A stretch of DNA of 64,000 bases from Melioribacteraceae bacterium (GTDB taxonomy: Bacteria; Bacteroidota; Ignavibacteria; Ignavibacteriales; Melioribacteraceae), in assembly GCA_030584085.1 (NCBI GenBank), contig CP129490.1:1645511-1709510 (forward strand), read 5' to 3'. Position numbers and translations under genes: made by a program. The notes below the pieces were generated by a model. The model ran no database searches. It saw only the letters and a program-made list of their open reading frames with translations, and was not told where the DNA came from. Below, piece after piece: positions 16,077-36,115 of the stretch. The first letter of the stretch is position 1; the number at the start of each line of letters is the position of its first letter.

Positions 16077-16082
16077 TATTTT

Positions 16083-17858: not shown

Positions 17859-17867
17859 GTTAACTCT

Positions 17868-19840: not shown

Positions 19841-19845
19841 ATAAA

Positions 19846-20070
19846 CAGCCTAACCCACAAATCAACCGGACGCCGATTTCAAACCGGCATTTGTGCGTTT
19901 CTTAGGTTTATTGAAATATGCAAGGTTGCTATTCAGCAGTAATGTATTAAAACTAAATTGTTGCAACCGGCTTGTACGGTTGAATTTACAAACCGGTTGC
20001 TAAATTATTGATGTTATTCTTTTAATCGGCTTTCCTGTTCTGGCGCCGGTTATTTACGCAGCCGTTAGTG
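19846..20070 (+). repeat. attC1-like recombination site
   Basis: R'' is CAGCCTAAC (19846-19854), exactly complementary to the cassette start GTTAGGCTG at 19268-19276. R' is GTTAGTG at 20064-20070, preceded by GCAGCC. The interior is long, with several CCGG-containing inverted segments (CAACCGG / CCGGTTG). The segment AAATCAACCGGACGCCG recurs in attC2, so these two belong to one attC family. Confidence 0.8.
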
Positions 20071-20093
20071 TGCTAAATTAATTGGGAATCATA

Positions 20094-20912
20094 ATGTCTG
20101 AATTAAAATATATTGATAGACTAAAGTTTGAAAAAATATTTGGTATGGGTGGTGGATATGTAATGGATTTTACTAATAGAACTTTTAGAGATTTTATTTA
20201 CCAAACGATTGACAAAGATATTTATGATGATAAATACGAAGGATTTAGTGGTTCTAAAGCAAATAGATTAAGAAAGTTTTGGGAAGTTGAATCAAATTAT
20301 TTGGCTGCGAAACTTAACTCGAATCTACTGGAATATTGGAAATCATTAAACATAGCTCCAGATAAAGAATTAAATGACTTATATGAAGAATGCCTAAGAG
20401 TATGTGAAGAATTAAAGCAAGATTCGATGGATGAACATATTGGTGCGATAAAACCTAATACTGAGGATAAGGATTTCTCAACTCTTGCAAATTTAATTCG
20501 TGATAGTATTGAGAAAAATGAACCTGAAACAGCAATTGATAGACTTCATACGTTTGTTGTTAAATATATTCGCAGTTTATGTAATAAGCACAGTATTAAC
20601 TATGACAAAAATAAAGCTCTACACAGTTTCTATGGAGAATATGTCAAACATCTTAGAGCGGAAAATAAAATTGAATCGGAGATGACAGAAAGAATTTTGA
20701 AAACATCCATTTCAATCCTTGAAGCATTTAATACAGTTAGAAATGATCAGAGTTTCGCTCATGACAATCCAATTCTAAATTATAATGAGAGCTTACTCAT
20801 ATTCAAGAACATAGCGTGTGTAATTGAATTTTTAGAATCTATTGAGAGAGATGATAAAAAAGAAGATGAAGATAATAAGGATATATTTGTTGATGATGAT
20901 CTACCATTTTAA
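20094..20912 (+). CDS. Abortive-infection family protein with Abi_C domain (cassette 2)
   Basis: 272 residues from the ATG at 20094. The C-terminal 110 residues (IDRLHTFVVKYIRSLCNKHSI...KALHSFYGEYVKHLRAEN...ILKTSISILEAFNTVRNDQSFAHDN) show the Abi_C pattern, with the RNxxSFAHDN motif seen in HEPN-like abortive-infection proteins. The N-terminal half is helical and unrecognised. Such proteins are linked with phage defence, possibly as RNases; an antiviral role here is inferred. The acidic C terminus ends KEDEDNKDIFVDDDLPF. Confidence 0.72.
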   Translation: MSELKYIDRLKFEKIFGMGGGYVMDFTNRTFRDFIYQTIDKDIYDDKYEGFSGSKANRLRKFWEVESNYLAAKLNSNLLEYWKSLNIAPDKELNDLYEECLRVCEELKQDSMDEHIGAIKPNTEDKDFSTLANLIRDSIEKNEPETAIDRLHTFVVKYIRSLCNKHSINYDKNKALHSFYGEYVKHLRAENKIESEMTERILKTSISILEAFNTVRNDQSFAHDNPILNYNESLLIFKNIACVIEFLESIERDDKKEDEDNKDIFVDDDLPF

Positions 20913-20914
20913 AT

Positions 20915-20952
20915 AGCACACTAACACGCAAATCAACTGGACGCCGTTATGT
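20915..20952 (+). repeat. attC2-like site, unusually short
   Basis: R'' AGCACACTAAC (20915-20925) is complementary over 11 bases to the cassette start GTTAGTGTGCT at 20064. R' GTTATGT is at 20946. Only about 20 bp (ACGCAAATCAACTGGACGCC) lie between them. The usual central hairpin and L' arm are missing, so the site may be a deletion derivative of an attC1-type site. Confidence 0.75.
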
Positions 20953-20988
20953 GTATTGCAATGAACATTTCATTAACTCATTATTAAT

Positions 20989-22071
20989 ATGATTAAATTA
21001 TTTCCATACATTTATGAACCAGAGAAAAGTCTTGAGGTTTTACAACAAACAGAGAAATATTTTATTGAGAAACCTGATATTAAAAACAAAATTGAAGAAC
21101 TAGGATGGGTTTACCATAGTATTGGCAAATCAATTCCACAAACCACTGAGAACTTTTGGTCTGGTCATTATTTCCCTTATGTTGAATCTTGGGATGAATT
21201 ACAAATATCATTTAATCTTGTAGCTTTCGGTTTATATAAACAAGCCTTTATGTCACTAAGAAATGCTCTGGAAGTAGGGATGTTATCGGTCTATTACAAT
21301 ATTGATGATGATGGACACAAAGTGGTTAAAGATTGGCTGAATTCAAAGGACACTTGGGAAGCAAACACACCAAGGTCAGATAAAATTTGGAAAATTCTTA
21401 AGTCTAATGGTAATATTAATAAATTCAATGAGTTATTTAGATTGGAAGATGAATTTAATTCATTGAGTTTTCTACATAATTTTGTTCATACAAAAGGTTA
21501 CAAATTTTCAAATAAATTAGGAATTCCAAAACCCAACTGTCAAACTTTTGCGGAAGATATATTTCTAAAGTGGTTAAATACATATCAAAGAATAATCGAA
21601 TTTATATTAATATTACATATATTAAAATATCCAATATCCATTATCGAATATGATTGGAGTGTGAAAATTGGTATTGATAATCCCTTCCCAGTTCTTGAGG
21701 TATTTGAGATTGAAAAGATTAAAAAAATATTACCAAAAGAATATTTTGATGAATTAAAGAAAATTGCAGAAAACGATAAAAATACTCAAGATTTGTTTGA
21801 TCATATATGTAATCTACCTGATATGAGTGAAAATGACCAAGAATCACAAATTATTAGGTCGGTTAAAATGTTCATCGAACACGGAGAAGGTTTTATTGAA
21901 TGGGAGAAAAAAGAAAGAGAATTAATGAAAGAATGTAGTGATGAGGTAAAAGAAAAAATATCCAAACGAATTGAAATCATTAGGGAATGGGCAATAGAAA
22001 ATAATATGATGAAATCGCAATTAGAGAGATTAAAAGAGGAAGGCTTTTTCAATAAACAAAAATACACATGA
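20989..22071 (+). CDS. Unknown cassette protein, paralogue of 22202-23149 (cassette 3)
   Basis: 360 residues, soluble, helix-rich. It shares with the next cassette the patterns YKQAFMSLRNALEVGMLSVYYN, a DWLNS stretch, a His-containing FVHTKGYKFS motif, and KIGIDNPFPVLEVF...EYFDELKKI...LPD. The LRNALE and H-x-x-G elements recall HEPN-type proteins, without a firm match. The stop codon lies inside the R'' box of attC3. Function unknown; defence is a guess from context. Confidence 0.65.
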   Translation: MIKLFPYIYEPEKSLEVLQQTEKYFIEKPDIKNKIEELGWVYHSIGKSIPQTTENFWSGHYFPYVESWDELQISFNLVAFGLYKQAFMSLRNALEVGMLSVYYNIDDDGHKVVKDWLNSKDTWEANTPRSDKIWKILKSNGNINKFNELFRLEDEFNSLSFLHNFVHTKGYKFSNKLGIPKPNCQTFAEDIFLKWLNTYQRIIEFILILHILKYPISIIEYDWSVKIGIDNPFPVLEVFEIEKIKKILPKEYFDELKKIAENDKNTQDLFDHICNLPDMSENDQESQIIRSVKMFIEHGEGFIEWEKKERELMKECSDEVKEKISKRIEIIREWAIENNMMKSQLERLKEEGFFNKQKYT

Positions 22072-22180
22072 CATCTTTAATAAGTAAAAAGTCAAGATGA
22101 CATAAATATTCTTGACAAATAAATTTTTATTAAATGAGAACTCGGCTATATTAGAAACTAAAGATGACACGCCGTTAGGT
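22063..22180 (+). repeat. attC3-like site
   Basis: R'' TACACATGAC overlaps the stop of the upstream gene and is complementary to the cassette start GTTATGTGTA at 20946 with one mismatch. R' GTTAGGT is at 22174, preceded by ACACGCC. The arm ATCTTT next to R'' pairs with AAAGAT next to R'. An inner hairpin GTCAAGA / TCTTGAC follows the shared ATCTTTAATAAGTAAAAAGTC segment. Confidence 0.8.
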
Positions 22181-22201
22181 GCCAAGGAATTATAGGATAT
22201 A

Positions 22202-23149
22202 ATGGATTTAACAAACATTCCATCTGACCCATTTGAAAGTAGGTTAGCATTTTTGAGAGATGGTTTTGACATATATGCTAATCTTACTATTGAATATATT
22301 CAGAAAGAGTATCCAAAGAAATTAGAACTTTATCAATGTTTAGACTTTATGGGTTATTCAATGTCAGAAACAAGTAAATCTGATTTTGAGACTCTAAAAA
22401 GACTTTGGTTTTTCCCAACGAATGAAGCGATAAGTGAGTTGAATGAATGCTTACACAGAATATTAGAGGCTGCTTATAAAGCTGGATATGATAATCTCCG
22501 ACGTGCTTTAGAACTTATTGTTGTCGGTTCATACTTTTCAATGAGTGAAACTAATGAGAAAGATGCAATAGATTGGCTTAACTCACAAAGAGGAACACCT
22601 TTATTCTCACGTGCAATTAAATCGCTTCTTAATGATAACAGATTTTTTAATCTTGAAAAAGATACTCTTTGGGTAACCAATCTAAAGAATTTTTATTGGT
22701 ATCTATCGGATATTATTCACACTAGAGGTAATAACTATTCTCTTGAAGCTCTCCAACCCTCTAATTTTTCATACAACAATATTAGAACTGCTCAATTTTC
22801 CAAAGCGAATCTAAAGCAATTATTGGACACATTTATTGAGACATTTAAAAATATATGCACTTGCATAGCTATTACAAATCCAATCTTATTAATTGGATTA
22901 CCAGTTGATGAAAAATATGGTTTTGATACCCCCGTTTCTGGTTTTTTCCGCGAACATCAATCGAATGATTTGTGGAATTTATTAATACCTGAAACAAAAG
23001 AATATTTTAGAAATTTAATTTCTACAGATTTAGAATTAATCTCTGTTTCTAGATGGATGAATTCTCTTCCTGATAAGACTGAAGAAGAAATTGAGAGACA
23101 AATTGAAGAATTTAAAAAAACTATAAACGATTTAAAAAAAGGCAACTAA
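22202..23149 (+). CDS. Unknown cassette protein, paralogue of 20989-22071 (cassette 4)
   Basis: 315 residues, helix-rich and soluble. It aligns by eye with the preceding cassette protein across the middle and C-terminal parts: YDNLRRALELIVVGSYFSM, DAIDWLNSQ, IIHTRGNNYS, EKYGFDTPVSGFF and SRWMNSLPD. The C terminus is a charged helix. The gene ends within the R'' box of attC4. Function unknown. Confidence 0.65.
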   Translation: MDLTNIPSDPFESRLAFLRDGFDIYANLTIEYIQKEYPKKLELYQCLDFMGYSMSETSKSDFETLKRLWFFPTNEAISELNECLHRILEAAYKAGYDNLRRALELIVVGSYFSMSETNEKDAIDWLNSQRGTPLFSRAIKSLLNDNRFFNLEKDTLWVTNLKNFYWYLSDIIHTRGNNYSLEALQPSNFSYNNIRTAQFSKANLKQLLDTFIETFKNICTCIAITNPILLIGLPVDEKYGFDTPVSGFFREHQSNDLWNLLIPETKEYFRNLISTDLELISVSRWMNSLPDKTEEEIERQIEEFKKTINDLKKGN

Positions 23150-23320
23150 CATCTTTAATAAGTGAAAAGTCCCTCCTTCGTAAAATACAACTTCGGAGGG
23201 CGGGCAAGTTGGGTATAGTTTTTCCGTGAAATAAGTTTTGTGGAAAAGTTCTTAGTTAAAAAATTATTAAAAAAATATAAATCGGCGTTGCTGGTTGTTT
23301 AATAGAACACGCCGTTAGGC
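23141..23320 (+). repeat. attC4-like site
   Basis: R'' GGCAACTAAC (23141-23150) against cassette start GTTAGGTGCC at 22174, one mismatch. R' GTTAGGC is at 23314-23320 after AACACGCC. The shared segment ATCTTTAATAAGTGAAAAGTC is followed by an inner hairpin CCCTCC / GGAGGG. The right arm contains AAATCGGCGTTGCTGGTTG, nearly identical in attC5. Confidence 0.82.
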
Positions 23321-23424
23321 AGTCAAAAACATTATTATAAAATATTGCAATACTTTGGGATTTTGGGTCAACGTAAATAGTTAGTGAAAAAATATTAAAC
23401 AGTAGAATAAGTTGAAAATTCAAT

Positions 23425-23610
23425 ATGGATAAAACTCATTTAATAATGATTGCTTTTGGTCTTGTTTCTGCCATTTTATATTTCGCTACTCCAAATACTA
23501 AAAAAAATGATCCAAATTGGATGAAACTTGGAAGTGTAGCAATTTATATAAGCATAATTATTGGGATAATAGGATTATTCTTACTTATAAGAGATTTAAT
23601 ATTTAAATGA
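23425..23610 (+). CDS. 61-residue two-helix membrane protein (cassette 5)
   Basis: Two membrane segments (HLIMIAFGLVSAILYFA and VAIYISIIIGIIGLFLLI) joined by a short polar linker. It is the sole gene of its cassette, which carries perfectly matching boundaries. Small membrane proteins are a frequent class of integron cassette product. Function unknown. Confidence 0.5.
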   Translation: MDKTHLIMIAFGLVSAILYFATPNTKKNDPNWMKLGSVAIYISIIIGIIGLFLLIRDLIFK

Positions 23611-23621
23611 AATATATAAAA

Positions 23622-23792
23622 ACTGCCTAACATCTTTAATAAGTAAAAAGTCCCCGCATCAAAAAACTGTGGGGTGAGTAAGTGGATATAGTTATTCCAT
23701 GAAATAAGTTTTGTAGAAAAGTTGTTTGTAAATCATTATTGAAAAAATATAAATCGGTGTTGCTGGTTGTTTAACATAACACGCCGTTATAC
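23622..23792 (+). repeat. attC5-like site
   Basis: R'' ACTGCCTAAC (23622-23631) is complementary over 10 of 10 bases to the cassette start GTTAGGCAGT at 23314. R' GTTATAC is at 23786-23792 after AACACGCC. The inner hairpin is CCCCGC / GTGGGG. It shares both arms with attC4 (ATCTTTAATAAGTAAAAAGTC, GAAATAAGTTTTGTAGAAAAGTT). Confidence 0.85.
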
Positions 23793-23808
23793 ATTTAAGG
23801 GAAACATT

Positions 23809-24399
23809 ATGAGTTTATTCAACAAGGTTGATTTACAAAAAAAATATGATTCAATATCACGAGGGCTTTACAAATCTGCAAGCACAATTTTACTTGAAGA
23901 TTCAAGATCGTTTTCTGAATATAAAACTTATGATGTGTTTTTATCGCATAGTTCATTGGATGCCAGTTATATTCTAGCCATTTCCGAAGAAATTAAAGAT
24001 TTAGGATTTACAGTTTATGTCGATTGGATAGAAGACCCAGCATTAGATAGAAAAAATGTAAATAAGCATACTGCCGCTAAACTAAGAGAAAGAATGAAAA
24101 ATAGTAAATCATTGTTTTACGCAACCTCTGTTAATTCTTCTGATTCAAAATGGATGCCTTGGGAATTAGGTTATTTTGATGGTATAAAATCTAAAGTAGC
24201 AATATTACCTGTGTATGATAGCCCCAAATATCTTGCAAATTATAAAGGTCAAGAATACTTGGGATTATATCCATTTGTAGCAAAGGGAAAAATACAAAAT
24301 AAAAATGAGGAAGCACTTTGGATTCATTATGATGAAAATACTTATGTTAACTTTTATTTCTGGTTGAACCAAGGCAAACAACCCTATAAACATTATTAG
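23809..24399 (+). CDS. TIR-domain protein (cassette 6, gene 1)
   Basis: 196 residues from the ATG at 23809, after AAGGGAAAC; an earlier TTG would begin inside attC5. A TIR domain begins at about residue 40 (YDVFLSHSSLDASYILAISEEIKDLGFTVYVDW) and includes the putative catalytic Glu in WMPWELGYFDG, near residue 117. Bacterial TIR proteins cleave NAD or make cyclic ADP-ribose isomers in antiphage signalling. It shares a cassette with a membrane protein and a ThsB-like protein. Confidence 0.82.
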   Translation: MSLFNKVDLQKKYDSISRGLYKSASTILLEDSRSFSEYKTYDVFLSHSSLDASYILAISEEIKDLGFTVYVDWIEDPALDRKNVNKHTAAKLRERMKNSKSLFYATSVNSSDSKWMPWELGYFDGIKSKVAILPVYDSPKYLANYKGQEYLGLYPFVAKGKIQNKNEEALWIHYDENTYVNFYFWLNQGKQPYKHY

Positions 24400-24407
24400 G
24401 TGGTTTT

Positions 24408-24809
24408 ATGGAAAGTAAATTAAAACACTTGGAAATGATACAAGGAATTATCAACCGGATGGCTCAAAATTCATTTATGCTAAAAGGTTGGAGTGTTATT
24501 ATAATTTCTGCACTTTTTGTATTAGCAGCAAAAGATTCAGTTAAAGAATTTGTTTACTTGGGATATTTCCCCGCTGTAATATTTTGGGTCCTCGACAGTT
24601 ATTTTCTCTGGCAAGAAAAATTATTCAGAAAATTATATGATAAAGTTAGATCAATTAGTAATGAGGATATAGATTTCTCGATGAATACAAAAGAATTTTT
24701 GACTGAAGTAAGTTGGTTTAAAACCACTTTCGCAAAAACACCTGTTTTATTCCATCTCATGGTGTTATCTGTTCTAATAATAGTCACTATAATTATTAAT
24801 TGGAGGTAA
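24408..24809 (+). CDS. Membrane protein associated with TIR-like genes (cassette 6, gene 2)
   Basis: 133 residues. An amphipathic N terminus (LKHLEMIQGIINRMAQNSFMLKGWS) is followed by two close membrane segments (VIIISALFVLAA and FVYLGYFPAVIFWVLDSYFLWQE), then FRKLYDKVR and a C-terminal membrane segment. I recall this family as a regular neighbour of DUF1863 TIR-like genes. The inferred role is a membrane effector triggered by a nucleotide signal. It starts 9 bp after the TIR gene. Confidence 0.65.
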   Translation: MESKLKHLEMIQGIINRMAQNSFMLKGWSVIIISALFVLAAKDSVKEFVYLGYFPAVIFWVLDSYFLWQEKLFRKLYDKVRSISNEDIDFSMNTKEFLTEVSWFKTTFAKTPVLFHLMVLSVLIIVTIIINWR

Positions 24810-24813
24810 TTTT

Positions 24814-25305
24814 TTGGCCCGTAGAGTGTTTTTTAGTTTTCATTTCGATCGTGATTCTTGGCGTGTCGGTCAAGTTAGGAATTGTAACGTAGTTACAAAT
24901 AATTATATTCGAAATGATTTTGTAGACTCAGCAATTTGGGAAGCTGTAAAGAGTGCTGGAGATACTGCAATAAAAAATTGGATTAATAATCAATTAAAAG
25001 GTACTTCTGTAACAATTGTATTAATCGGTAATCAAACTAATGAGCGGAAATATGTTCATTATGAAATTGAACAGAGTATTGCCAAGGGGAATGGCTTTCT
25101 TGGAATTTACGTCCATAATATTAAAAATCAACATCAAATGACCGATTTTATGGGCTCAAATCCATTAGATGCTTGGCAAGTAAGAACAATTTATGGTAAT
25201 CAATATTTGTCGCAAATATTTAGAACATATGATTGGGTGCTGAATGATGGTAGAACTAATATTTATAACTGGGTTGAAGAAGCAGCAAGGATTGCTGGCA
25301 AATAA
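24814..25305 (+). CDS. MTH538/ThsB-type TIR-like protein, DUF1863 (cassette 6, gene 3)
   Basis: 163 residues, TTG start at 24814 preceded by a strong GGAGG. The start ARRVFFSFHFDRDSWRVGQVRN, the middle WINNQLKGTSVTIVLIGNQTNERKYVHYEIEQSIAKGNGFLGIYVHNI and the end match the DUF1863 family, which includes the ThsB sensors of Thoeris defence. Together with the preceding TIR and membrane genes it suggests a Thoeris-like signalling system in which one protein detects phage and another executes. Confidence 0.78.
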   Translation: MARRVFFSFHFDRDSWRVGQVRNCNVVTNNYIRNDFVDSAIWEAVKSAGDTAIKNWINNQLKGTSVTIVLIGNQTNERKYVHYEIEQSIAKGNGFLGIYVHNIKNQHQMTDFMGSNPLDAWQVRTIYGNQYLSQIFRTYDWVLNDGRTNIYNWVEEAARIAGK

Positions 25306-25308
25306 AAC

Positions 25309-25495
25309 GTATAACCTGCTTTTCCACCCGACCGAGTTTTCAATACGGCACTGTGCAAATTATGGGGTTTGGTATAAAAGGTAAGCATTGCCTGTAACAT
25401 TGTTCTAATTAATAAATTTACAAAAATTATTGGCAGTAGCTTTTCAGTTCGTAATTGTTATTAGGGGCGGCCGGGTGAAAAGCCACACCGATAAA
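25309..25495 (+). repeat. attC6-like site of a different family
   Basis: R'' GTATAAC (25309-25315) is complementary to the cassette start GTTATAC at 23786. A long imperfect inverted repeat (GCTTTTCCACCCGACCG at about 25318 with CGGCCGGGTGAAAAGC at 25468) flanks an interior of about 130 bp. R' is degenerate (GATAAAA near 25490). Sequence arms differ from attC3-5, so this cassette came from another source. Confidence 0.65.
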
Positions 25496-25507
25496 ATATT
25501 GTGATAT

Positions 25508-25861
25508 ATGCTTAAGATAATTACCATTATTATATTATCTCTAATATCAATTTTTATTCTTTTCTCAACATTCTACTTTTGGTATTCAGCTTTTAAAGGT
25601 AAGCGGGATATTGTAAATGGAGATAGTAATAAATATTATGCTATTTTTATTGGCTCTTTAGTAGGTGTAGGTATTTTATCATATCTCTCATTTGATGGTA
25701 TATTATTTTTTATACCCGAAACTTGGGGAAACATAAATGATGATGGTGACTTTTTTTCTTATAAAAGCATAATTGCTGGTTTTTTATCAGTGCTGTTGAC
25801 ATTCTTTTTCCATTCAAGACCATTTAAATTTATCAACTTTATAAGAAGTAAGGAGGATTGA
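25508..25861 (+). CDS. Three-helix membrane protein (cassette 7)
   Basis: 117 residues. Membrane segments lie at about residues 3-25, 45-68 and 88-105, with an acidic loop (NINDDGDFFSYKS) between the second and third. It is the single gene of its unit. No family recognised. Confidence 0.55.
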   Translation: MLKIITIIILSLISIFILFSTFYFWYSAFKGKRDIVNGDSNKYYAIFIGSLVGVGILSYLSFDGILFFIPETWGNINDDGDFFSYKSIIAGFLSVLLTFFFHSRPFKFINFIRSKED

Positions 25862-25892
25862 GATATAAATATAATCTTAATCTTCTAATGCA

Positions 25893-26028
25893 ACATAACA
25901 TCTTTAATAAATAAAAAGTCAAGAGGATATATTTATTCATTAAATATGTTTTGTAAAAAAGTTGATTGTAGATAATTATTGAAAAATGAATTATCGCTAA
26001 TGGATATTTAACATAAAAACCGTTTAGC
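25893..26028 (+). repeat. attC7-like site
   Basis: R'' ACATAAC (25893-25899) is followed by the shared segment ATCTTTAATAAATAAAAAGTC. R' GTTTAGC is at 26022-26028. The R'' no longer matches the start of this cassette, since the preceding boundary is degenerate. Other arms resemble attC4 and attC5 (ATGTTTTGTAAAAAAGTTG). Confidence 0.65.
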
Positions 26029-26050
26029 AGAATAAAAGGGTAATCATACT

Positions 26051-26782
26051 GTGCAAATCTTAGGCATTATACTCTGGATCTTGAGTTTAGTATGGGCAAT
26101 AACTCAAGGTCTAAATATTCGCCGTAAGGCTAAAGTCGAACAAGCTACAGAACATACGTTGGAAGTACATGCATTTCTGGCAGCAGTTTCTGTTGTTATC
26201 GTACCATTACTATCTCTATCTCCTTTCCACTTATTATGGATGTTACCTGTTTCTTTTTTTCTCGGGTTATCGAGTATAATTTTTCCACTTAATTTATTAT
26301 GGTATCCAGCTTCGTTATATAGTTATTTGTGGTATTATGGTGTAAAAAATCCTGGTCGGGCTTTTTATCTTAATGGTGATTATGAAAATGCGATAAAACA
26401 TTTCAAAGCACAGCTTCACTCAAATCCTAATTCTGCGGAAACATTTTTTAACTTAGGCCTAGCATATGATAAAGCTGGTGACACCAATAATGCAATTGAA
26501 TCATATAAAAATGCTGTTCAGATTAGACCCGATTCTGAAATCACATATTTAAATCTGGGATTAGCATATAAGGACTCTGGTGATTACCAAAATGCTATTG
26601 AATCTTTCAAAGAGGCAATAAAAATTAAACCGACCTATTATAAAGCTCGCGTTAATTTGGGTTTAGTTTTTCTTGAACTTGGTGATATCGAAGGTGCTAT
26701 GAAAGAATATGTTATTCTTAAGAAATCAGATAGCTCTATAGCTGCTGAATTATATTCAGAAATTGAAAAGCTTAACAAATAG
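26051..26782 (+). CDS. Membrane protein with TPR repeats (cassette 8)
   Basis: 243 residues, GTG start. Up to three N-terminal membrane segments (residues 1-20, 38-60, 62-95) are followed from about residue 108 by three to four tetratricopeptide repeats (AFYLNGDYENAIKHFKAQLHSNPNSAETFFNLGLAYDKAGDTNNAIESYKNAV...). TPRs mediate protein contacts. The combination suggests a membrane-anchored scaffold. It is longer than most cassette products. Confidence 0.7.
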   Translation: MQILGIILWILSLVWAITQGLNIRRKAKVEQATEHTLEVHAFLAAVSVVIVPLLSLSPFHLLWMLPVSFFLGLSSIIFPLNLLWYPASLYSYLWYYGVKNPGRAFYLNGDYENAIKHFKAQLHSNPNSAETFFNLGLAYDKAGDTNNAIESYKNAVQIRPDSEITYLNLGLAYKDSGDYQNAIESFKEAIKIKPTYYKARVNLGLVFLELGDIEGAMKEYVILKKSDSSIAAELYSEIEKLNK

Positions 26783-26817
26783 CTGAAATTATGAAGTATT
26801 ATGAAAAAGGTAGTTCA

Positions 26818-26926
26818 GCCAAATCGTTTTAATAAGTTAAAAATCAAGCGGTCGTAAATATACATAACAAAGTATATTTTAGAAAAGGAGAACTCCGTGT
26901 CGTTATTAACATAACGGCCGTTATAT
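26818..26926 (+). repeat. attC8-like site, partly eroded
   Basis: R'' region GCCAAAT followed by CGTTTTAATAAGTTAAAAATC aligns with the GCCTAAC-ATCTTTAATAAGT arm of attC5 with several changes. R' GTTATAT is at 26920-26926 after ACGGCC. Complementarity to the cassette start is only partial. Confidence 0.55.
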
Positions 26927-26951
26927 GCTTGAGAAATAGTAAGGTGTTTAC

Positions 26952-27341
26952 ATGATCAAACAAATATTAAGTAAGCTTTTTGGATTTAGGTGGTCCCTTT
27001 ATGTATTGCGTAACAAAAAAGAGCTAGGTTTTGTCATGCATAGTCAAAATGTTGGCGACTTAGTTGGATATATTGGAAGTTGGTTTGAAAAAAAAGGCGA
27101 ACCACATAACAATTATTCACTTGCCTTAAATTTTAACAAAACTAATGAAGTAATCCATTTATCCCAACACCACTTTAAAGAAGACGGATTCCCAACAAAT
27201 GAATTATGGAATAAACTAAACAGCATAGATAAAAAGTGGAAAGGTAAACCTCATCTTCAAATGAATGAATTCTTTTTTATTAATGTTGCGACCGGTGAAA
27301 AAGTTGATTCAACCATAGTCAAAGAATTAATTTACTTATAA
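26952..27341 (+). CDS. Hypothetical cassette protein (cassette 9, gene 1)
   Basis: 129 residues with no signal peptide or clear membrane segment beyond a hydrophobic N-terminal helix. Patterns such as GYIGSWFEKKGEPHNNYSLALNFNKTNEVIHLSQHHF suggest a globular beta-rich protein. It is followed 25 bp later by a second gene in the same cassette. No family recognised. Confidence 0.55.
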   Translation: MIKQILSKLFGFRWSLYVLRNKKELGFVMHSQNVGDLVGYIGSWFEKKGEPHNNYSLALNFNKTNEVIHLSQHHFKEDGFPTNELWNKLNSIDKKWKGKPHLQMNEFFFINVATGEKVDSTIVKELIYL

Positions 27342-27365
27342 AATATTAAAATAACAGAAAGTGTA

Positions 27366-27983
27366 ATGGAAAAAGCATTTTGGTTATTACTTGGCTCTAT
27401 TATCACAATTGTGATTACAAAGTTATTTGAAATCTTTCAAGCAAGTAAAGAGAATAAATTTACATTACGCAAAATTTACTTTGAAAAGAAAATAATTGCA
27501 GCCGAAGAAGCAATAACAGATTTATATAATGATCTAAACGGTATTAGCAAATTTATGAGGGTCTACAATAAAATCGCTAACTCTAAAATAGAAGATTTTC
27601 CTTTTATATATAAGGAAATGGAATATCTAAATGAGGAGACCAAAAAAGCAATTGATGCTACTGATAAAATTGCCCATCGAATGTATCTATACTTTGATTT
27701 TGATGAATATATGGAAAAAGAAGAATCAAACTTAGATGCATTGCTAGATCTTTCCACTGAATTGAGAAGTGCCGAATCTGAAATAGAGATAATAATAAAA
27801 GTTGCTAAAGATTTTGATAAAGACCAAGGAGCAGAAGAAATAGCGTTAAATAAAATTAAAGAGAAATTTGAGGAATACATCCCAAAATTAAAAGAACTTG
27901 TTCAACTAGGTCATCGTGCACAAAAAGATGCAAGGATGCAATTGAAACAAATTAAAGCAGAAATGAAAAAATATGATTTATGA
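27366..27983 (+). CDS. Membrane-anchored coiled-coil protein (cassette 9, gene 2)
   Basis: 205 residues. One N-terminal membrane segment (FWLLLGSIITIVITKLFEIF) is followed by a long helical, charged cytoplasmic part with heptad-like spacing, ending in a lysine-rich tail. Such anchor-plus-coil proteins often accompany defence or surface systems, but the function here is unknown. Confidence 0.55.
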   Translation: MEKAFWLLLGSIITIVITKLFEIFQASKENKFTLRKIYFEKKIIAAEEAITDLYNDLNGISKFMRVYNKIANSKIEDFPFIYKEMEYLNEETKKAIDATDKIAHRMYLYFDFDEYMEKEESNLDALLDLSTELRSAESEIEIIIKVAKDFDKDQGAEEIALNKIKEKFEEYIPKLKELVQLGHRAQKDARMQLKQIKAEMKKYDL

Positions 27984-27989
27984 AGAAGT

Positions 27990-28164
27990 GCATATAGTCT
28001 TTTGATTAAGCACAAAGTCTTGCCTAAGTGCAACTATAATTTCGGAGGTCGGGTAAGCTGGGGATAGGTGTTCTTGAGTAAAAGTTTCTAAAATAGTTCT
28101 TCTTTTATAGGAGAATATGGTTAGTACGACGTTATTGGTTATTTGGCATGATCCATCGTTATGT
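27990..28164 (+). repeat. attC9-like site, eroded
   Basis: R'' region GCATATAGTC shares seven bases with the complement of the cassette start GTTATATGC at 26920. The shared TTTTGATTAAGCACAAAGTC arm follows, with an inner segment GGTTAGTACGACGTTATTGGTTATT. R' GTTATGT is at 28158-28164. Confidence 0.5.
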
Positions 28165-28169
28165 GAATT

Positions 28170-28604
28170 ATGAAATATTTAGCAATTATTAAATATTATC
28201 TTTTACTTCTGCTTTTATCGGTAGTAGCATACATCAGTATATATATATTGAGCTATTTAATTATTTATTCCCACTATCTACTTGAAGCAAATTTTAGTTT
28301 TATTGCAGATGTTATGAAAATAATGGTTGGAAACATTGCCTACACTTCATCATTATTTTTAATGGTCGAAGTTACAGCTATAATGGGAAGCGGTTATATT
28401 TTAGGCAAAGTAACAGATAATCTTTCATACAATAATCCACCTTGTGGTCAAGCTTTTATATATGTACTAGCAACTATTTCTATATTTTTTATTACTGTTT
28501 TTTTTATTATGGTTTTTAGTGAAACACTTTATTGGTTCTTTGATTATTTGATAACAATTCTTTCACCAATATTATTTGTTTTACCATTTGGTGCCAATTA
28601 CTAA
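28170..28604 (+). CDS. Polytopic membrane protein (cassette 10)
   Basis: 144 residues, nearly all hydrophobic, with about four membrane segments (for example LLLLLLSVVAYISIYILSYLIIY and FIYVLATISIFFITVFFIMVF). No motif or family recognised. It begins 6 bp after the R' box of attC9, typical of tightly packed cassettes. Confidence 0.5.
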   Translation: MKYLAIIKYYLLLLLLSVVAYISIYILSYLIIYSHYLLEANFSFIADVMKIMVGNIAYTSSLFLMVEVTAIMGSGYILGKVTDNLSYNNPPCGQAFIYVLATISIFFITVFFIMVFSETLYWFFDYLITILSPILFVLPFGANY

Positions 28605-28700
28605 TAAAACATAAATGGAAGTTTTTAGATTAGAAATTAATTAATGGATTTAATTCTGTTTCGGTAGTTGATTGATAATAAGAATTAACCATCGATACAT
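28605..28700 (+). repeat. Possible eroded attC10
   Basis: The segment ends with CCATCGATACATTTGAGG, which resembles the ACGCCGTTATACATTTAAGG boundary at 23781-23800 with changes in the core. An AAAACATAAAT near its start could be a decayed R''. It is reported because it keeps the cassette spacing, but homology is weak. Confidence 0.3.
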
Positions 28701-28713
28701 TTGAGGTACTTTT

Positions 28714-29262
28714 ATGTCTCATGCTAACGATACTGAATGGATTCCAATAACAATGGAAACAACCTTACGCGAAAATGATGTTGTTTCTAATATCGAATTA
28801 AAAGATGGTAAAGAAGAATTAATAATTTGGCGTTTGTTAACAATTGAAGATTCTCCTTTCCCTGGTCTAATACCTTTAAGAAGTATTATGCGTTCTGGTG
28901 TTGCTATCGATCCAAAAGATCGAAGAGAAATGGGTGTTGTGAAAGAGTATTTTGTAGAAAACAATTTTTCATTATTAGTTGGAAAGTCTGATAATGAAAA
29001 TGATTGGCCTGTTTCACTTATTGAAGCAGTCGAATTACTAAAATCAAAATTGACAGTTGAGCAACAAGATGAAATTCGTAACTATAAACAAGATGATTTA
29101 ATAGATCTGCATTTTAGCCTTGGGCTTTGGATTAGAAATACTTTTGGGTTACATGGGGGTAATAAACAATTATTAATGGATTGCTCACCGGATAAACCTG
29201 AACCTGATAATGTATCTGGGATTATTATAGAAGAGTTTTGGAAGTCTTTACAAAACGTTTGA
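28714..29262 (+). CDS. DUF6794-like protein (cassette 11)
   Basis: 182 residues, soluble. The second half, SLIEAVELLKSKLTVEQQDEIRNYKQDDLIDLHFSLGLWIRNTFGLHGGNKQLLMDC...SGIIIEEFWKSLQ, has the pattern of the DUF6794 domain, whose function is unknown. A ribosome-binding site (TTGAGGTAC) precedes the start. It is the last gene of the array; no convincing attC follows. Confidence 0.6.
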   Translation: MSHANDTEWIPITMETTLRENDVVSNIELKDGKEELIIWRLLTIEDSPFPGLIPLRSIMRSGVAIDPKDRREMGVVKEYFVENNFSLLVGKSDNENDWPVSLIEAVELLKSKLTVEQQDEIRNYKQDDLIDLHFSLGLWIRNTFGLHGGNKQLLMDCSPDKPEPDNVSGIIIEEFWKSLQNV

Positions 29263-29407
29263 TTATTTAGGGTTCTCCTTCGCCCTTCGGGTCTCGTAAG
29301 TTTATCATAATTCGCCCCGATATATCGGGGTCTCATGTATAAAATCACCTTTCATTAAACCAGATCAATCATTTCATTTGTGCGGTTCTATCTTAACATT
29401 CAGCAAA

Positions 29408-29843
29408 GTTGACCGTTTTTCAAAAGACGTGGATTCCCGGTTAAGCCGGGAACCACAACAAAAAAGGTCAACATTGCTTATCAGTAAATCCGAACATGTT
29501 TCAACTGCCAAAGATAATTCGTTACCTTCATTCAGCTACATTTCGTGATCCTTCATTCCGCTTCATTCACTTCACTCATTAACTTTGTTTCTCTAAAAGC
29601 AAAATCATATTTGTAGTTCTATCCGTGTTTCGTTCCGCTTCACTCGACTAAAATATTATCAATGCAACTTTCGAGGTAAACAGTCCGGTAATTCGCCGGA
29701 CGTTTACCTCTCACATGGGTTATGCAACAGTTGACCGTAAACATCGGATAATTCAAAAGCCCGATGTTTAGGTCAACAATGGGTCATGGTCACGTTGACC
29801 GTAAAACATCATATAGAACAAAAGCATGATGTTTTAGGTCAAC
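29408..29843. repeat. Array of four related long hairpins
   Basis: Hairpins at 29408-29472, 29730-29777 and 29794-29843 all have outer arms GTTGACC / GGTCAAC. Their inner arms differ but stay paired: GTGGATTCCCGG / CCGGGAACCAC, TAAACATCGG / CCGATGTTTA, and TAAAACATCAT / ATGATGTTTTA. A fourth (29673-29710) pairs GAGGTAAA with TTTACCTC and GTCCGG with CCGGAC. Conserved ends with compensatory inner changes point to selection on the folded structure or on a palindromic binding site. Confidence 0.75.
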
Positions 29844-30372
29844 AATTGATCAATCATACTTTTGTCTCGTTTTGCGGAAACAGAAACACTTAACATTCGC
29901 AGATTGTTAATCATTCCGCAGTTAACCCATTAAAGACTTTGGGATAACTAATCGCTTCATAACAAACTGCATCAGTAAATCGATTCATGGGGATTGCAAC
30001 CTAACAGAAATCTACTTTCATTAGAGTCATCCGATCGTTTCATTTGTGCGTGTTAGTCGGACATTCCGCAATAACTCATTTCGCTCGGTCATGCTTTTTG
30101 TTTCTAATCGCTTATGTTGTTTACTTCGCTTTTGTTGAAATTTAAGCTTCGTTCACAACTGACCCCACTTACAAAAAGACTCGCCCTCGCTTCATTCGTC
30201 AATGCTCATCAATTAATCATAATATGTTTCGTGAAGCAAAAGTTTTCATTCCTCATTCGCTTAACGGGACACACGCTCATTCGTCATTCAAACCTTTGCA
30301 AAACAAAATCAGAAAGGACTTATTCCAAAAACCCTTCCTTGTTGTTTGCCGGTAAACATCACCGGCTTGAAT

Positions 30373-30593
30373 GAAAAAACCCGCCAGTATTCAATTTTAG
30401 TGTAAAACAAAATCACTGTGTCGACAACCTAACATATATCTGCAATCGATAAATGCAAGGGTACATAAACTCGTTTTGTCAGTTTTCTTCACGCCTCAAT
30501 TATTCGGCTAAAAACTTCCAAAACTTCGCCCTTGCATTGTCTTGTTCAATGCAACGTACATAGGTAAAAGCATTTTTCTGCGCGGGTTTTTTC
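30373..30593 (+). ncRNA. Candidate structured RNA (nested inverted repeats)
   Basis: GAAAAAACCCGC (30373-30384) pairs perfectly with GCGGGTTTTTTC (30582-30593). Inside it AATGCAAGGG (30452-30461) pairs perfectly with CCCTTGCATT (30529-30538). The nested arms, closed by a T-rich 3' end, suggest a stable transcript of about 220 nt or a DNA structure. No known RNA family is recognised and transcription is unproven; the strand is chosen from the T-tract. Confidence 0.4.
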
Positions 30594-30961
30594 AAATGTT
30601 TTTTTGGGGAAAGTCCGTCAACAATTTAGGGGTAGTCATGCAACAATATATAATATTAAAACTAAGGTGTAATAAATACGGCATTCAATCTATTCATGTT
30701 GTCCAGCATAAAAAAAATTGTTCTGTTAATTGTTGGTTTTCAAATGGCAGCTTTTCTTCAGTGCGGTTCCGGTCTGCTTCGCAAGCCGTTTCTTTTGCTC
30801 GTTTCGTTTGCGGTGCAAAACCTAAAAACAGTCCGGTGCAATTATCATTATTATAGTTTCTTAATCTTTCTTTTTATTGTTATTACTTGCTATTTCTTTC
30901 CTTTTCTTGTATATTTCAAGTGTTCTTTTGTTCAGTTTTTCACAATCAAAAGGAGTTTATT

Positions 30962-31279
30962 ATGTCACTATCAAAAACCGTTTCTTTAGCACTAAGAGCC
31001 GGCTGTTCTTTTTTTGGTGGCAAACCTTTATTATCTGTGCCTTACGGTCGCAGAGGTCAACTTGTTTTATTATTTCGCAAACCGTTAAACCCTTACTTCT
31101 TTTTTTTCCTGCTCAAAAATTACTCCGCTGAAAATATAACCCTTAAAGCTGTGGAATACAAAGGGGTATTATATCACGGTGTTTTTGTCGCAATTCCTTT
31201 TCGTGTTACTAAAAAATTTCTTTTCTCGTTTCGCAAGTTCTCAAAACATCATCATCACTTAATAAGTCATTTTGCTTAA
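30962..31279 (+). CDS. Hypothetical Phe-rich small protein upstream of ardC
   Basis: 105 residues from the ATG at 30962, preceded by a good AAAAGGAG site; longer frames starting upstream lack one. It begins MSLSKTVSLALRAGCSFFGGKPLLSVPYGRRGQLVLLF and is basic and aromatic, ending in a His-rich tail. It is the first gene of the right-arm operon. No family recognised. Confidence 0.55.
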   Translation: MSLSKTVSLALRAGCSFFGGKPLLSVPYGRRGQLVLLFRKPLNPYFFFFLLKNYSAENITLKAVEYKGVLYHGVFVAIPFRVTKKFLFSFRKFSKHHHHLISHFA

Positions 31280-31282
31280 ATC

Positions 31283-31310
31283 ATTCCGGCATATTGCCGG
31301 GAAGGAGTTA
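31283..31310 (+). promoter_or_regulatory. Hairpin abutting the ardC ribosome-binding site
   Basis: TTCCGGC / GCCGGGAA with loop ATATT ends at GAAGGAG, the ribosome-binding site of the ArdC gene. The stem would compete with or present the site. A second, longer hairpin of the same type stands before the gene at 32298. Confidence 0.45.
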
Positions 31311-31315
31311 ACATC

Positions 31316-32245
31316 ATGAAAAGATCAGACATTTATAATAAGGTTAATTCAGTAATCAAAGATAAACTTGCTTCCGGGTCTTTGCCTTGGCGCAAGACAT
31401 GGAACAACGGAAAACCACCGCAGAACTTTATTTCAAAACATTTATATCAAGGAATCAATTTTCTTTTACTTTCTTGTTTTGATTTTCCTTCACCTTTCTA
31501 TTTAACTTTCCTTCAAGCAAAGGAAAGAAACGCCTATATCAAAAAAGGCGAAAAAGGTATTCCGATTGTTTTCTGGAAATTATTGGATAATACCAAGATC
31601 AAAGAATCCGGTAAAGCAGAAATTGATAAAATTCCATTCATGCGTACAAGTACAGTTTTTAATCTTTCGCAAACTTCGCTTTATAATTCCGCAGCTCTCG
31701 AAGATCTTAAATTTCCAAACGTGGAAAAATTTCTAGCTACTGTTCCGGCAGTTATCAAAAATAATATTCAAGGTAAAGCAGTATTTAATCTTACCAAAGA
31801 TTTTATTTCTATTCCTGCAATCTCAGAGTTTGAATCCTCAGATGAATATTATTCAACTTTATTCCATGAGTTAATCCATTGGACCGGATTCAAAAACAGA
31901 TTAAACCGTTTCAAATCCGCAGACTATAACTCAGACAACTACTCAAAAGAGGAACTTATCGCGGAAATCGGCTCGGCTTATCTTTGCTCTTATTTCGGCA
32001 TTAATAACACTCTGGATAATTCGGCCGGTTATATTCAAGGATGGTTAAACTCTCTAAATAACGATCAATCAATTTTTATATCCGCAGCAGCACAAGCAAA
32101 AAACGCAGTTAATTATTTAATCAAAGATTTTGAAGAATCCGCAGAGCAAGACCCCGTTAATACTTCGGAAAGAGAAACTTTCTTTAATGCAGAAGCAGAA
32201 AACGCAGAAGATTTAGAACCTGGATTTGTAATGGAACATCGTTAA
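31316..32245 (+). CDS. ardC: ArdC-type anti-restriction protein
   Basis: 309 residues. The N-terminal ssDNA-binding domain (IYNKVNSVIKDKLASGSLPWRKTW...QGINFLLLS...AYIKKGEKGIPIVFWK) is followed by a zincin-type metalloprotease domain with HELIH at 184-188 and Glu217 in EELIAEIGSAYL. ArdC proteins protect incoming single-stranded plasmid or phage DNA from restriction. All catalytic residues are present. It leads an operon with the Sak4-like ATPase and small genes. Confidence 0.88.
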   Translation: MKRSDIYNKVNSVIKDKLASGSLPWRKTWNNGKPPQNFISKHLYQGINFLLLSCFDFPSPFYLTFLQAKERNAYIKKGEKGIPIVFWKLLDNTKIKESGKAEIDKIPFMRTSTVFNLSQTSLYNSAALEDLKFPNVEKFLATVPAVIKNNIQGKAVFNLTKDFISIPAISEFESSDEYYSTLFHELIHWTGFKNRLNRFKSADYNSDNYSKEELIAEIGSAYLCSYFGINNTLDNSAGYIQGWLNSLNNDQSIFISAAAQAKNAVNYLIKDFEESAEQDPVNTSERETFFNAEAENAEDLEPGFVMEHR

Positions 32246-32254
32246 AAATATTAA

Positions 32255-32289
32255 ACCGGTTCCGGCATTCGTGCCGGTTCCGGTGGGAG
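32255..32289 (+). promoter_or_regulatory. Palindromic hairpin before the 32298 gene
   Basis: ACCGG-TT-CCGGC and GCCGG-TT-CCGGT form a near-perfect stem with a six-base loop, ending exactly at the GGGAG ribosome-binding site. It resembles the shorter structure before ardC, suggesting shared translational control or an RNA-binding protein site. Confidence 0.45.
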
Positions 32290-32297
32290 TTAATAAA

Positions 32298-32501
32298 ATG
32301 TGCATGAGAAATATCGACGTAAAAGCAGAAAGAGAATTTGAAATAATTCAAAGCTATCTAAATGATCAACATATAAGCGATCTATTAGAAATCATTCCGG
32401 ACAGATTCGAGGAAGATATCAAAGATGCATTAAAAGAAATCATTCAAGAATACAATCTTATCTATATAAATCAATTCAATGAAATTTGTTTTGAATCATA
32501 A
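32298..32501 (+). CDS. Hypothetical small acidic protein
   Basis: 67 residues from the ATG at 32298 with GGGAG eight bases upstream; an earlier GTG lies inside the hairpin. Helical and acidic (EREFEIIQSYLNDQHISDLLEIIPDRFEEDIKDALKEIIQEY). No family recognised. It precedes the Sak4-like gene by 17 bp. Confidence 0.6.
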   Translation: MCMRNIDVKAEREFEIIQSYLNDQHISDLLEIIPDRFEEDIKDALKEIIQEYNLIYINQFNEICFES

Positions 32502-32518
32502 AAGAAGGAGTAACCAAA

Positions 32519-33628
32519 ATGAAATTAGAAAATTTTGCAACCGCTTTAGTAAGTAAGAATCACTTCATCAAAGCTTCTTTCGGTGGTTTTCAAGGTGCGG
32601 GAAAAACTCGCACAGCAACCGAGTTTGTTATCGGTGCTTACAAAGATTTGAAATGTACCAAGCCGGTTTTAATTCTGGATAATGAAAAAGGTTCAAGGTT
32701 CTTAATCCCGATTTTCAATAAAGCCGGTATCAGAGCTATTGTTAAAGATACTCGCAGTCTTTCAGATGTTAAACAAGCTTTTAATTTTCTCAACAATAAA
32801 GAGATCGATTTTCTTTTCATCGATTCACTTACAAAGATTTATTATCAGTTTGTCAAAGACTATAAAGCAAAAAACAGAAAGTCTTTTATGTCGCTGATGG
32901 ACTGGGGAAAACTTCTTCCCGCCTGGCAAGAAGAGTTCTCAGATGTGTTTGTGGAAACAGAAGGAAATATAGTCTTTACCGGTCGAGGTGGTTTTGAGTA
33001 TGAGAAGGAAGATGATCAGAAAGATGAAGCCGGAAATATTACAGAGAAAGGAAGTTATGTTAAGTCCGGTGTAAAAATGAAAATCGCCGGTGAAACTCCC
33101 TATGAAACCGATCTCAATATCTGGATGCAATTAGAGAAAGAATTAAAGAATGATAAACCCGTTCAAACAAATGTTGCTTATGTTCTCAAAGATCGTTCGG
33201 ACACAATAAACGCCAAATCTTTTTCTATGCCTAAATACAGAAATTTGAAACCGGTTATTAGATTTATTCAAGGTCTTGAAGTTGGAGAGATTGCTGGAGA
33301 ATCCACTCATGAGAACTTCACTCCCGGAGATGATCTAGATTACTGGCAAAGAAAGCAAGAACAAAAAATTGCTCTCGAAAAAATAGAAGCGGTATTCGAT
33401 GAAAATGGATTAGGTGATGCAAGAAGTAAAGCTGATAAACAACTAAAAGCGGTAATCATTAAAAAGGTTTTTGGTACAACTTCCAAAACGGAAATTGAGA
33501 AAATGAAAGCTTCTCAGCTTACATATCTCAAAGAATCTTTAGAACAATTATTTATTGATCTAAAAGACAACCAACCGGAAAACCCGATTGAGTTCATAGA
33601 AGCGTACAACTTAGAGGAAGCTGCTTAA
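32519..33628 (+). CDS. Sak4-like RecA-fold ATPase (phage recombination)
   Basis: 369 residues. P-loop ATPase: Walker A GFQGAGKT at 23-30, Walker B DFLFID at 97-102, and a helix-rich C-terminal third. The pattern matches phage nucleotide-binding proteins of the Sak4/AAA_24 group, single-strand annealing or recombination mediators. AAGGAG lies eight bases upstream. It overlaps the next gene's start by 1 bp (TAATG). Its role would be recombination-dependent replication or repair of the element. Confidence 0.75.
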   Translation: MKLENFATALVSKNHFIKASFGGFQGAGKTRTATEFVIGAYKDLKCTKPVLILDNEKGSRFLIPIFNKAGIRAIVKDTRSLSDVKQAFNFLNNKEIDFLFIDSLTKIYYQFVKDYKAKNRKSFMSLMDWGKLLPAWQEEFSDVFVETEGNIVFTGRGGFEYEKEDDQKDEAGNITEKGSYVKSGVKMKIAGETPYETDLNIWMQLEKELKNDKPVQTNVAYVLKDRSDTINAKSFSMPKYRNLKPVIRFIQGLEVGEIAGESTHENFTPGDDLDYWQRKQEQKIALEKIEAVFDENGLGDARSKADKQLKAVIIKKVFGTTSKTEIEKMKASQLTYLKESLEQLFIDLKDNQPENPIEFIEAYNLEEAA

Positions 33629-33897
33629 TGAAGCTTTCCTTATTCAAATATGATTTAGAGATTGAAGCAGCCGAAAAACGCCGGGAGCTTCAATCTCTTT
33701 TTACTGATGATGAGTTAGATTCAATCGCACAAGTTTTTGATTATCAATACAATCGTTGCTTTTGGGAATTGAGAAGTCTTAATTCAAAACATTGGCTGCC
33801 GGATGAAGTATTAAAGAGAAAGAGATATTCAATTTCCAAGCAGCGATCGTATTGTAAAACATATCGAGATAAATTTAGAAACGCTAAAAGGAGATAA
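33628..33897 (+). CDS. Hypothetical protein following the Sak4-like gene
   Basis: 89 residues, helical and basic toward the C terminus (KRYSISKQRSYCKTYRDKFRNAKRR). It starts at the previous stop (TAATG). It may be a DNA-binding partner of the ATPase, by position. No family recognised. Confidence 0.6.
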   Translation: MKLSLFKYDLEIEAAEKRRELQSLFTDDELDSIAQVFDYQYNRCFWELRSLNSKHWLPDEVLKRKRYSISKQRSYCKTYRDKFRNAKRR

Positions 33898-35310: not shown

Positions 35311-35359
35311 TGTGGGCCCAGATGGACTCGAACCAACGACCCTCTGATTATGAGTCAGA
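35311..35359. repeat. Right attachment site: 49-bp direct repeat
   Basis: Identical to 1085-1133. It forms the 3' half of the intact tRNA-Met, so integration regenerates a functional tRNA at this end. Confidence 0.95.
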
Positions 35360-35386
35360 TGCTCTAACCAACTGAGCTATGGGCCC
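35313..35386 (-). tRNA. tRNA-Met(CAU), integration target
   Basis: A complete 74-nt cloverleaf on the minus strand. The acceptor stem is GGGCCCA / TGGGCCC, the anticodon stem TCTGA / TCAGA with loop CTCATAA (anticodon CAT), and the T loop TTCGAGT is standard. The 5' part (35360-35386) is chromosomal and the 3' part is within the attachment repeat. Elongator Met is most likely; an Ile tRNA with modified CAU cannot be excluded. CCA is not encoded. Confidence 0.93.
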
Positions 35387-35560
35387 AAAAAGAAGAGCAT
35401 AAAAATAGCATAAAAGAGTTCATTTTGCAAGAATATATTCCTCTATGAACGAATTTGTGATAACACTTTTCCCGATTCCTAAGCTTCCGCCTTTGATTCT
35501 GAATAATAATACCCAATCATTCCTGGCCCATGAAATGTAATTTAAACTATTTCACTAGGC

Positions 35561-36115
35561 CTGACCCGTGAAATGCCTCATCTTATATTTAACCGGGTCC
35601 CTTTGACTTGATTTCTCTGTGGTACTCTGTGCATCCTCTGTGTAACTCTGTGTTACAGCTTTTGCCTTTGAATTACCCTTTTCCCTGACCCGTGAAATGC
35701 TTCATCTTATATTTCACCGGGTCCCTTTGCCTTTTCCCTTTGACTTGATTTCTCTGTGGTACTCTGTGCATCCTCTGTGTAACTCTGTGTTACAGCTTTT
35801 GTCTTTGAATTTGAATTAACTTTTCCCTGACCCGTGAAATGCCTCATCTTATATTTCACTGGGTCCCTTTGCCTTGATTTCTCTGTGGTACTCTGTGTGA
35901 CTCTGTGTTACAGCTTTTGCTTTTGAATTTACCTTTTCCCTGACCCGTGAAATGCTTCATCTTATATTTCACCGGGTCCCTTTGACTTGATTTCTCTGTG
36001 GTACTCTGTGCATCCTCTGTGTAACTCTGTGTTACAGCTTTTGCCTTTGAATTTGCATTAACTTTTCCCTGACCCGTGAAATGCCTCATCTTATATTTCA
36101 CCGGGTCCATTTCCC
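35561..36115. repeat. Tandem repeat array of about 113-142 bp units
   Basis: Five starts of a CTGACCCGTGAAATG unit at 35561, 35685, 35827, 35940 and 36069. Each continues CATCTTATATTTCACCGGGTCC and, in most, a CTCTGTGGTACTCTGTG-rich segment. The GACCCGTGAAAT and ATTTCACCGGGTC parts are inverted repeats, giving a hairpin in each unit. An open frame on the minus strand here is a by-product of the repeats. Confidence 0.85.

Follow-up and report, generated by a model that had tools for sequence, protein, structure and literature searches.

The window, that is, the whole analysed stretch of 64,000 nucleotides from a Melioribacteraceae bacterium, contains an integrated phage-like element of 34,226 bp. 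We delimit it in this way because an exact 49-bp repeat bounds it, with a tRNA-Met at the right copy and an integrase gene by the left one. The main features of the element are the following (window coordinates):

1085 to 35359, no strand assigned: integrated phage-like element, 34,226 bp (1085 to 35310) plus the second att copy
1085 to 1133 and 35311 to 35359: exact 49-bp att repeats, of which the right one forms the 3' part of tRNA-Met
1136 to 2242: tyrosine integrase gene adjoining the left att copy (Phage_integrase, E 1.2e-23)
3202 to 3606: replication-initiator-like gene, 26 kb from the hairpin region on the integrated map
10319 to 18302, no strand assigned: head and lysis genes (Pfam and PHROGs)
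17868 to 18302, plus strand: endolysin (Pfam/PHROGs)
29263 to 30637, plus strand: non-coding region of about 1.4 kb that holds the hairpin array, with no coding-type ORF by eye
30638 to 33628, plus strand: operon 3' of the region, with small ORFs at 30638-30856 and 30962-31279, then ArdC and AAA_24
31316 to 32245, plus strand: ArdC
32519 to 33628, plus strand: AAA_24 / Sak4-like ATPase
35312 to 35386: tRNA-Met at the right end

The gene set comprises a Mu-type portal, large and small terminase (minus strand), a head protease, a major head protein and a scaffold. Among the element proteins scanned, a subset of the ORFs, no tail family was recognised, and the late ORFs at 16185, 16993, 17373 and 18665 have no family match. 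Capsid-forming PICI (cf-PICI) satellites carry their own head, terminase and integrase genes, lack tail genes and use the tails of helper phages. By the genes identified, the element resembles them: it carries its own integrase, a terminase and head genes, and a tail module was not recognised among the proteins scanned. Relatives of the capsid occur in 43 of the 391 genomes of the class, own genome included. The element may vary within its species, since a genome of the same species (G112, 80% complete) has neither an ArdC match nor a strong match to 29263-33897. Other observations on the element and its surroundings are a tRNA-Met gene within it (16083-16155), a restriction-modification-like set (6091-8524) made of a DNA cytosine methyltransferase (7331-8524) and a PHROGs-family endonuclease (6091-6498), and, between the right-end tRNA-Met and a carA-like gene, diverged direct repeats of about 100-140 bp (35512-36112, by eye).

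Genes are arranged in the order late genes, cassette cargo, non-coding region, two small ORFs, ArdC and AAA_24. The cassette array (19403-29262), whose cargo genes are split by attC-like repeats of the GCCTAAC...GTTAGGC type, ends just upstream of the non-coding region. Part of its cargo (20082-25305) resembles anti-phage defence, with an Abi_C protein (20082-20912), a ThsB-type TIR protein (23767-24399), PDC-M50A (24408-24809) and ThsB/PDC-M50B (24814-25305). The hairpins and motifs of the non-coding region, all given on the plus strand, are:

29402 to 29478, plus strand: H1, span including its outer extension, AGCAA[A]GTTGACC...GGTCAAC[A]TTGCT (29408-29472 in array coordinates)
29429 to 29456, plus strand: centre of H1, a second, distinct hairpin nested in it
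29480 to 29490, plus strand: motif ATCAGTAAATC, directly after H1
29509 to 29587, plus strand: H1b, CAAAG[A]TAAT...ATTA[A]CTTTG, the same in the relative G424 (L213 4623-4701)
29673 to 29710, plus strand: H2, GAGGTAAAC[A]GTCCGG-loop-CCGGACGTTTACCTC
29730 to 29777, plus strand: H3, GTTGACC[G] and a 10-bp inner stem, with CAAAAGC at the loop end
29794 to 29843, plus strand: H4, GTTGACC[G] and an 11-bp inner stem, with CAAAAGC at the loop end
29899 to 29970, plus strand: H5, GCAG[A]TTGTTA...TAACAA[A]CTGC, with an inner stem at 29920-29949; it lies outside the array coordinates
29971 to 29981, plus strand: motif ATCAGTAAATC, directly after H5
30454 to 30536, plus strand: H6, TGCAAGGG...CCCTTGCA, by reading with GCAAGGG/CCCTTGC arms

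An original prediction made from the letters had described three hairpins with GTTGACC/GGTCAAC ends and a fourth between them, in DNA without a gene. This description holds. H1, H3 and H4 have the exact arms, H2, whose arms differ, sits between H1 and H3, and no ORF of coding character was seen by eye in 29263-30637. The outer helix of H1 extends past an A.A mismatch into AGCAA/TTGCT (29402-29478). The G that follows GTTGACC on its 3' side is unpaired in H3 and H4 and stands opposite an A in H1, and H1 has CAAAAG at the position matching the CAAAAGC loop ends of H3 and H4. Each hairpin folds far better than its shuffles, with z of -7.1 as RNA and -7.7 as DNA for H1 (29402-29478), -6.5 and -6.0 for H2 (29674-29711), -7.2 and -7.3 for H3, and -7.2 and -8.5 for H4; in each case, 0 of 200 shuffles were as good. 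For the array (29408-29843) z is -9.3 (60 shuffles) and for the whole of 29263-30637 it is -6.4, against +1.5 to -3.5 for 12 coding and +0.5 to -4.7 for 10 intergenic controls from the window. The part without H1-H4 (29860-30637) folds weakly (z -1.9; 3 of 60 shuffles as good). The hairpins are a real, strongly folded part of a non-coding region.

Since the cassette array ends so close by, the hairpins could be degenerate or unusual attC sites of that array. The genome has an integron integrase above the TIGR02249 cut-off (G000:C1:1507483-1508418, 137 kb before the window), and attC sites fold with constant outer boxes, a variable centre and unpaired bases, all of them traits that the hairpins share. 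By consensus, however, a folded attC site starts with RYYYAAC (5') and ends with GTTRRRY (3'). The boxes of the array are reversed (GTTGACC 5', GGTCAAC 3') and one base off GTTRRRY, the adjoining sites read GCCTAAC...GTTAGGC instead, and no cassette gene lies between the hairpins. Judged by its boxes the array is probably not attC, as the original prediction had held, and we regard this reading as extremely improbable.

The array also appears to stand outside known RNA families. Using Rfam 15, only tRNAs reached the gathering score in the window, and neither C4 nor any other family passed its threshold. Weak matches in the region (E 0.42-9.4) were all sub-threshold; unlike GOLLD, ROOL and OLE, the region gave no match to these families at E up to 10, nor did the regions of four relatives give any match at E up to 1. 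Among titles and abstracts, we found none describing these elements or this array.

Searches for further copies in other islands, which had been suggested as a check, returned little. In the 3.74-Mb host genome, the pattern GTTGACC-N20..50-GGTCAAC matches H3 and H4 only (H1, with 51 nt between its arms, is just beyond the pattern) and the reversed control pattern matches nowhere. A BLAST of 29263-30100 against the same genome found only itself below E 0.03. A dispersed palindromic repeat of the REP or MITE kind was rejected, as exact arms, BLAST and the H5 model described below are all confined to a single locus in this genome. Among viral contigs, the arm pattern occurs at 11 loci, which fall into two 64-nt types, with 5 loci of one and 6 of the other; they show one letter of variation and have no matched inner stem. 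In the genome collection it gave at least 118 stretches, 80 of them kept as loci L040-L119, and the best-folding 25 were judged to be chance matches. One of these 25 listed, L118 from Frankia, is a long GC-rich hairpin, but its inner sequence is unrelated. Short BLAST matches were also set aside, G021, G023 and G048 falling in apparent genes on reading and G039 and G045 being judged low-complexity from their coordinates only. Exact arms thus yielded no convincing copy in viral contigs or among the genome-collection matches listed. A BLAST of 29380-30080 matched 2 of the 391 genomes of the class, its own and that of G002, a genome of the same genus.

More was learned from related elements. We compared the regions of the window, G424 (cut), G043, G034 (a 3-kb contig), G091:C43 (cut) and L261; G017, G091:C23 and L263 were left out for short upstream DNA, L262, G068/L203 and G166 as distant, and G085 for a degenerate small-ORF match. 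Non-coding DNA lies at the corresponding place in all six, the window and its five relatives. In G043 the endolysin is followed by another ORF, 1.6 kb with no recognised gene, a small ORF related to 30962-31279 and AAA_24; L261 has endolysin, 1.4 kb without recognised genes and AAA_24. Relatives with such an order were returned by an alignment-based search and not by a single-query one. In G034 (small ORF, ArdC) and G091 (ArdC, AAA_24) such DNA stands 5' of the genes, its left side being cut by contig ends. Among 12 capsid-bearing loci, tblastn found AAA_24 only in L196 (in the stretches searched, several of them cut by contig ends). The regions of G043, L261, G034 and G091 do not align to the window's region as DNA. 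Those of the five relatives fold better than their shuffles (z -2.6 to -5.8), but since intergenic controls reach -4.7 these scores are unexceptional. The array is a fast-changing part of the non-coding region in this phage-like family.

The closest relative is the IMG/VR contig G424, which has the head genes in common (capsid 80%) and ends within the non-coding region. It retains H1 and about 130 bp 3' of this hairpin (76%), as well as the H5 block (74%). It lacks the H2-H4 segment (29643 to 29870 on the plus strand of the window, boundaries approximate), and in this interval it has a 74-aa ORF (L213 4736-4960) with no PHROGs or family match. The array as originally drawn is therefore no fixed unit. 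Related islands that lack the array and lose no function had been named as what would refute the idea; this is half borne out, since in G424 H2-H4 are missing but H1, its flank and H5 are kept.

The original prediction also stated that the inner arms covary. Between H3 and H4, a tandem duplicate, this is so in a limited way: 16 of 18 pairs are invariant, 2 are changed on both sides, one base pair is inserted and all scored cells are paired, which with two sequences is not significant (124 of 500 shuffles score as high). It fails for H1, whose centre is a different hairpin. Stronger covariation was found in H5, aligned across the window, G424 and G002. Its 19 pairs are paired in 98.2% of cells, with one cell broken; six pairs are changed on both sides and not one has a one-sided change; as high a covariation score came up in 2 of 500 shuffles, and double changes are absent from all six slid controls. 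The six changes are all confined to the G424 lineage and all Watson-Crick, with no G.U step. A model of H5 run against 23 loci gave true scores only in the window, G424 and G002 (a 28-bit match is the antisense of the G002 copy and the remainder have E > 3), and against 79 genomes of the family, under strict filters, it found the own genome, with one copy, and G002. The G002 copy stands alone (L004 about 1590-1727), near a contig end and intergenic by eye, with the rest of the region missing.

Such double-sided changes may also arise without selection. The hairpins could be functionless palindromes, created by duplication and by template switching during replication, which would also mend their arms. 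This agrees with the tandem duplication of H3 and H4, with the coming and going of H2-H4 among relatives and with the absence of one-sided changes from H5 and from H3/H4; moreover, template switching has been reported to generate hairpins and to keep them intact (PMC8794818). Against it, related elements retain H1 together with its unpaired flank and H5 together with its A.A mismatches, which repair alone would not account for, since it should erase mismatches. Similar hairpin-bearing regions also occur at the same place in other elements. We consider this explanation unlikely, though a serious competitor.

Other sequences beside the array recur as well. H1 and H5 have in common an A.A mismatch 4-5 pairs from the base and ATCAGTAAATC just past the 3' arm; this 11-mer occurs twice in G424, once in G091, after H6, and once in L196, there outside its non-coding region. 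The H6 arms GCAAGGG/CCCTTGC are found 5' of the operon in the window, G043, G034 and G091 with differing inner sequence (by eye); MAFFT did not bring them into register, and the exact words GCAAGGGTA and CGCCCTTGC are absent from L261. In this last element, an IMG/VR relative, a hairpin with 19-bp arms lies inside the non-coding region (7350-7441), and hairpins with the loop TCGTNCCTC are present in both L261 and G034. A short repeat near TCGCATAGCGATCAATTCTGA was seen in the H1 loop of G424 (L213 4547-4567) and in the endolysin gene of G424 (L204 11738-11758), and a variant of this repeat adjoins the H5 copy of G002 (L004 about 1578-1597).

Two further patterns, which were noticed first and tested afterwards, are offered as leads. 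Hairpins that share a loop (stem score of at least 8, 7-letter loop word) occur in 3 of 6 regions and in 0 of 181 control windows, and under looser settings in 5 of 6 and 14 of 181; in G043, TGAGGAA is the loop of three hairpins on different stems, while the strict matches in the window and G034 are duplicates. Among helices of at least 9 pairs with one mismatch, the mismatch is A.A in 15 of the 30 from these regions and in 47 of the 254 from controls (p = 0.0003), and in 11 of 26 (p = 0.009) once four homologous or duplicate copies are taken out; T.T accounts for 1 of 30, against 31 of 254.

Whether the region acts as DNA or RNA has to be weighed. As DNA, the hairpins could serve as an origin of replication or as some other site that works single-stranded (primosome assembly, ssDNA promoter), the folded strand being recognised by an initiator or polymerase. 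Folded as DNA, H1-H4 also reach z of -6.0 to -8.5, the downstream ArdC and Sak4-like ssDNA annealing family act on single strands, and the Watson-Crick-only changes of H5 are of the kind such a site would show. However, the initiator-like gene is far off in the integrated map, and cumulative GC skew of the element has no clear turning point at the region. This role seems to us improbable, without being remote. The hairpins could also serve as the element's signal for packaging (pac/cos) or transfer (oriT), since such signals are often repeated or folded and the element carries its own terminase. The terminase genes, however, lie 16 kb from the region and no relaxase family was found among the element proteins scanned (a subset of the ORFs), so we rate this reading as very unlikely. 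As to strand, the informative changes conflict, T.G in H1 pointing to the plus strand and C.A in H5 to the minus strand. Promoter-like matches are at chance (6 observed, 7.3 +- 2.4 expected), as are terminator-like ones (2 observed, 1.8 expected).

Comparison with known systems favours RNA. According to PMC7567579, the most abundant transcripts of phage ICP1 are non-coding and arise at its lysis cluster, from about 1 kb that has no ORF; those of PLE satellites are also non-coding, among them the IIR transcript. Our region, if transcribed, resembles the ICP1 feature as a gene-free stretch of about 1 kb beside lysis genes, and the PLE feature as a gene-free stretch of this size linked to inverted repeats. 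It is also long and strongly folded like the large RNAs GOLLD, ROOL and OLE, the first two of which occur in phages (PMC12286853, PMC7567579). Unlike antisense RNAs of the P4/PLE type, it has no exact antisense match of at least 12 nt to the -35..+20 stretches of 42 element gene starts on its plus strand, and the sole minus-strand match is where the region itself overlaps the 30638 leader.

Taken together, the hairpins are best explained by a cis-acting structured region or an RNA, as first suggested; the basis for this is the excess folding, the kept place, the covariation of H5 and the kept H1. Our preferred reading is that the array is part of a folded control region, likely RNA, of a phage-like, integrase-bearing element. 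The region would be the untranslated leader of the operon of small ORF, ArdC and ATPase, or a separate non-coding RNA. A constant outer arm, unpaired base or loop would sit on stems that are free to change while still pairing, and the hairpins would be repeated binding sites for one putative factor; its binding may regulate the operon, or may titrate the factor. The place, the kept H1 and H5 and the constant pieces on changing stems all fit a folded control region of this kind, with several copies of a binding site. We put RNA first because the gene-free gaps of ICP1 and PLE yield the most abundant non-coding transcripts and because A.A exceeds T.T on the plus strand; neither is proof. That the region is transcribed, that it acts as RNA and not as DNA, that a factor exists and that it regulates are what we infer from this sequence, and the control function is a proposal. 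Owing to the A.A helix count and to the weak folding outside H1-H4, we hold this reading tentatively, at somewhat less than an even chance.

A bolder possibility, which we consider quite doubtful, is that these regions form a new class of large phage and satellite non-coding RNA, evolving as a series of hairpin binding sites in which the constant part is kept and the stems diverge yet stay paired. The constant parts would be GTTGACC[G] and CAAAAGC in the window, TGAGGAA in G043, CAAAA..CGC in G034 and TCGTNCCTC in L261. If true, many non-identical copies of one binding site would escape recombination, as do the MS2/PP7 arrays of non-identical binding sites made by hand, and element-specific constant parts would indicate co-evolution with an element-specific partner.

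In phages and satellites, the transcripts made in the largest amounts can come from gene-free gaps, and their roles are mostly unknown. The gap described here matches no Rfam family, occupies a definite position in a family of phage-like elements of the host's class, has several relatives and contains, in H5, a hairpin that covaries between elements. It is also a natural test case of whether hairpins are kept by selection or by template-switch repair of palindromes.
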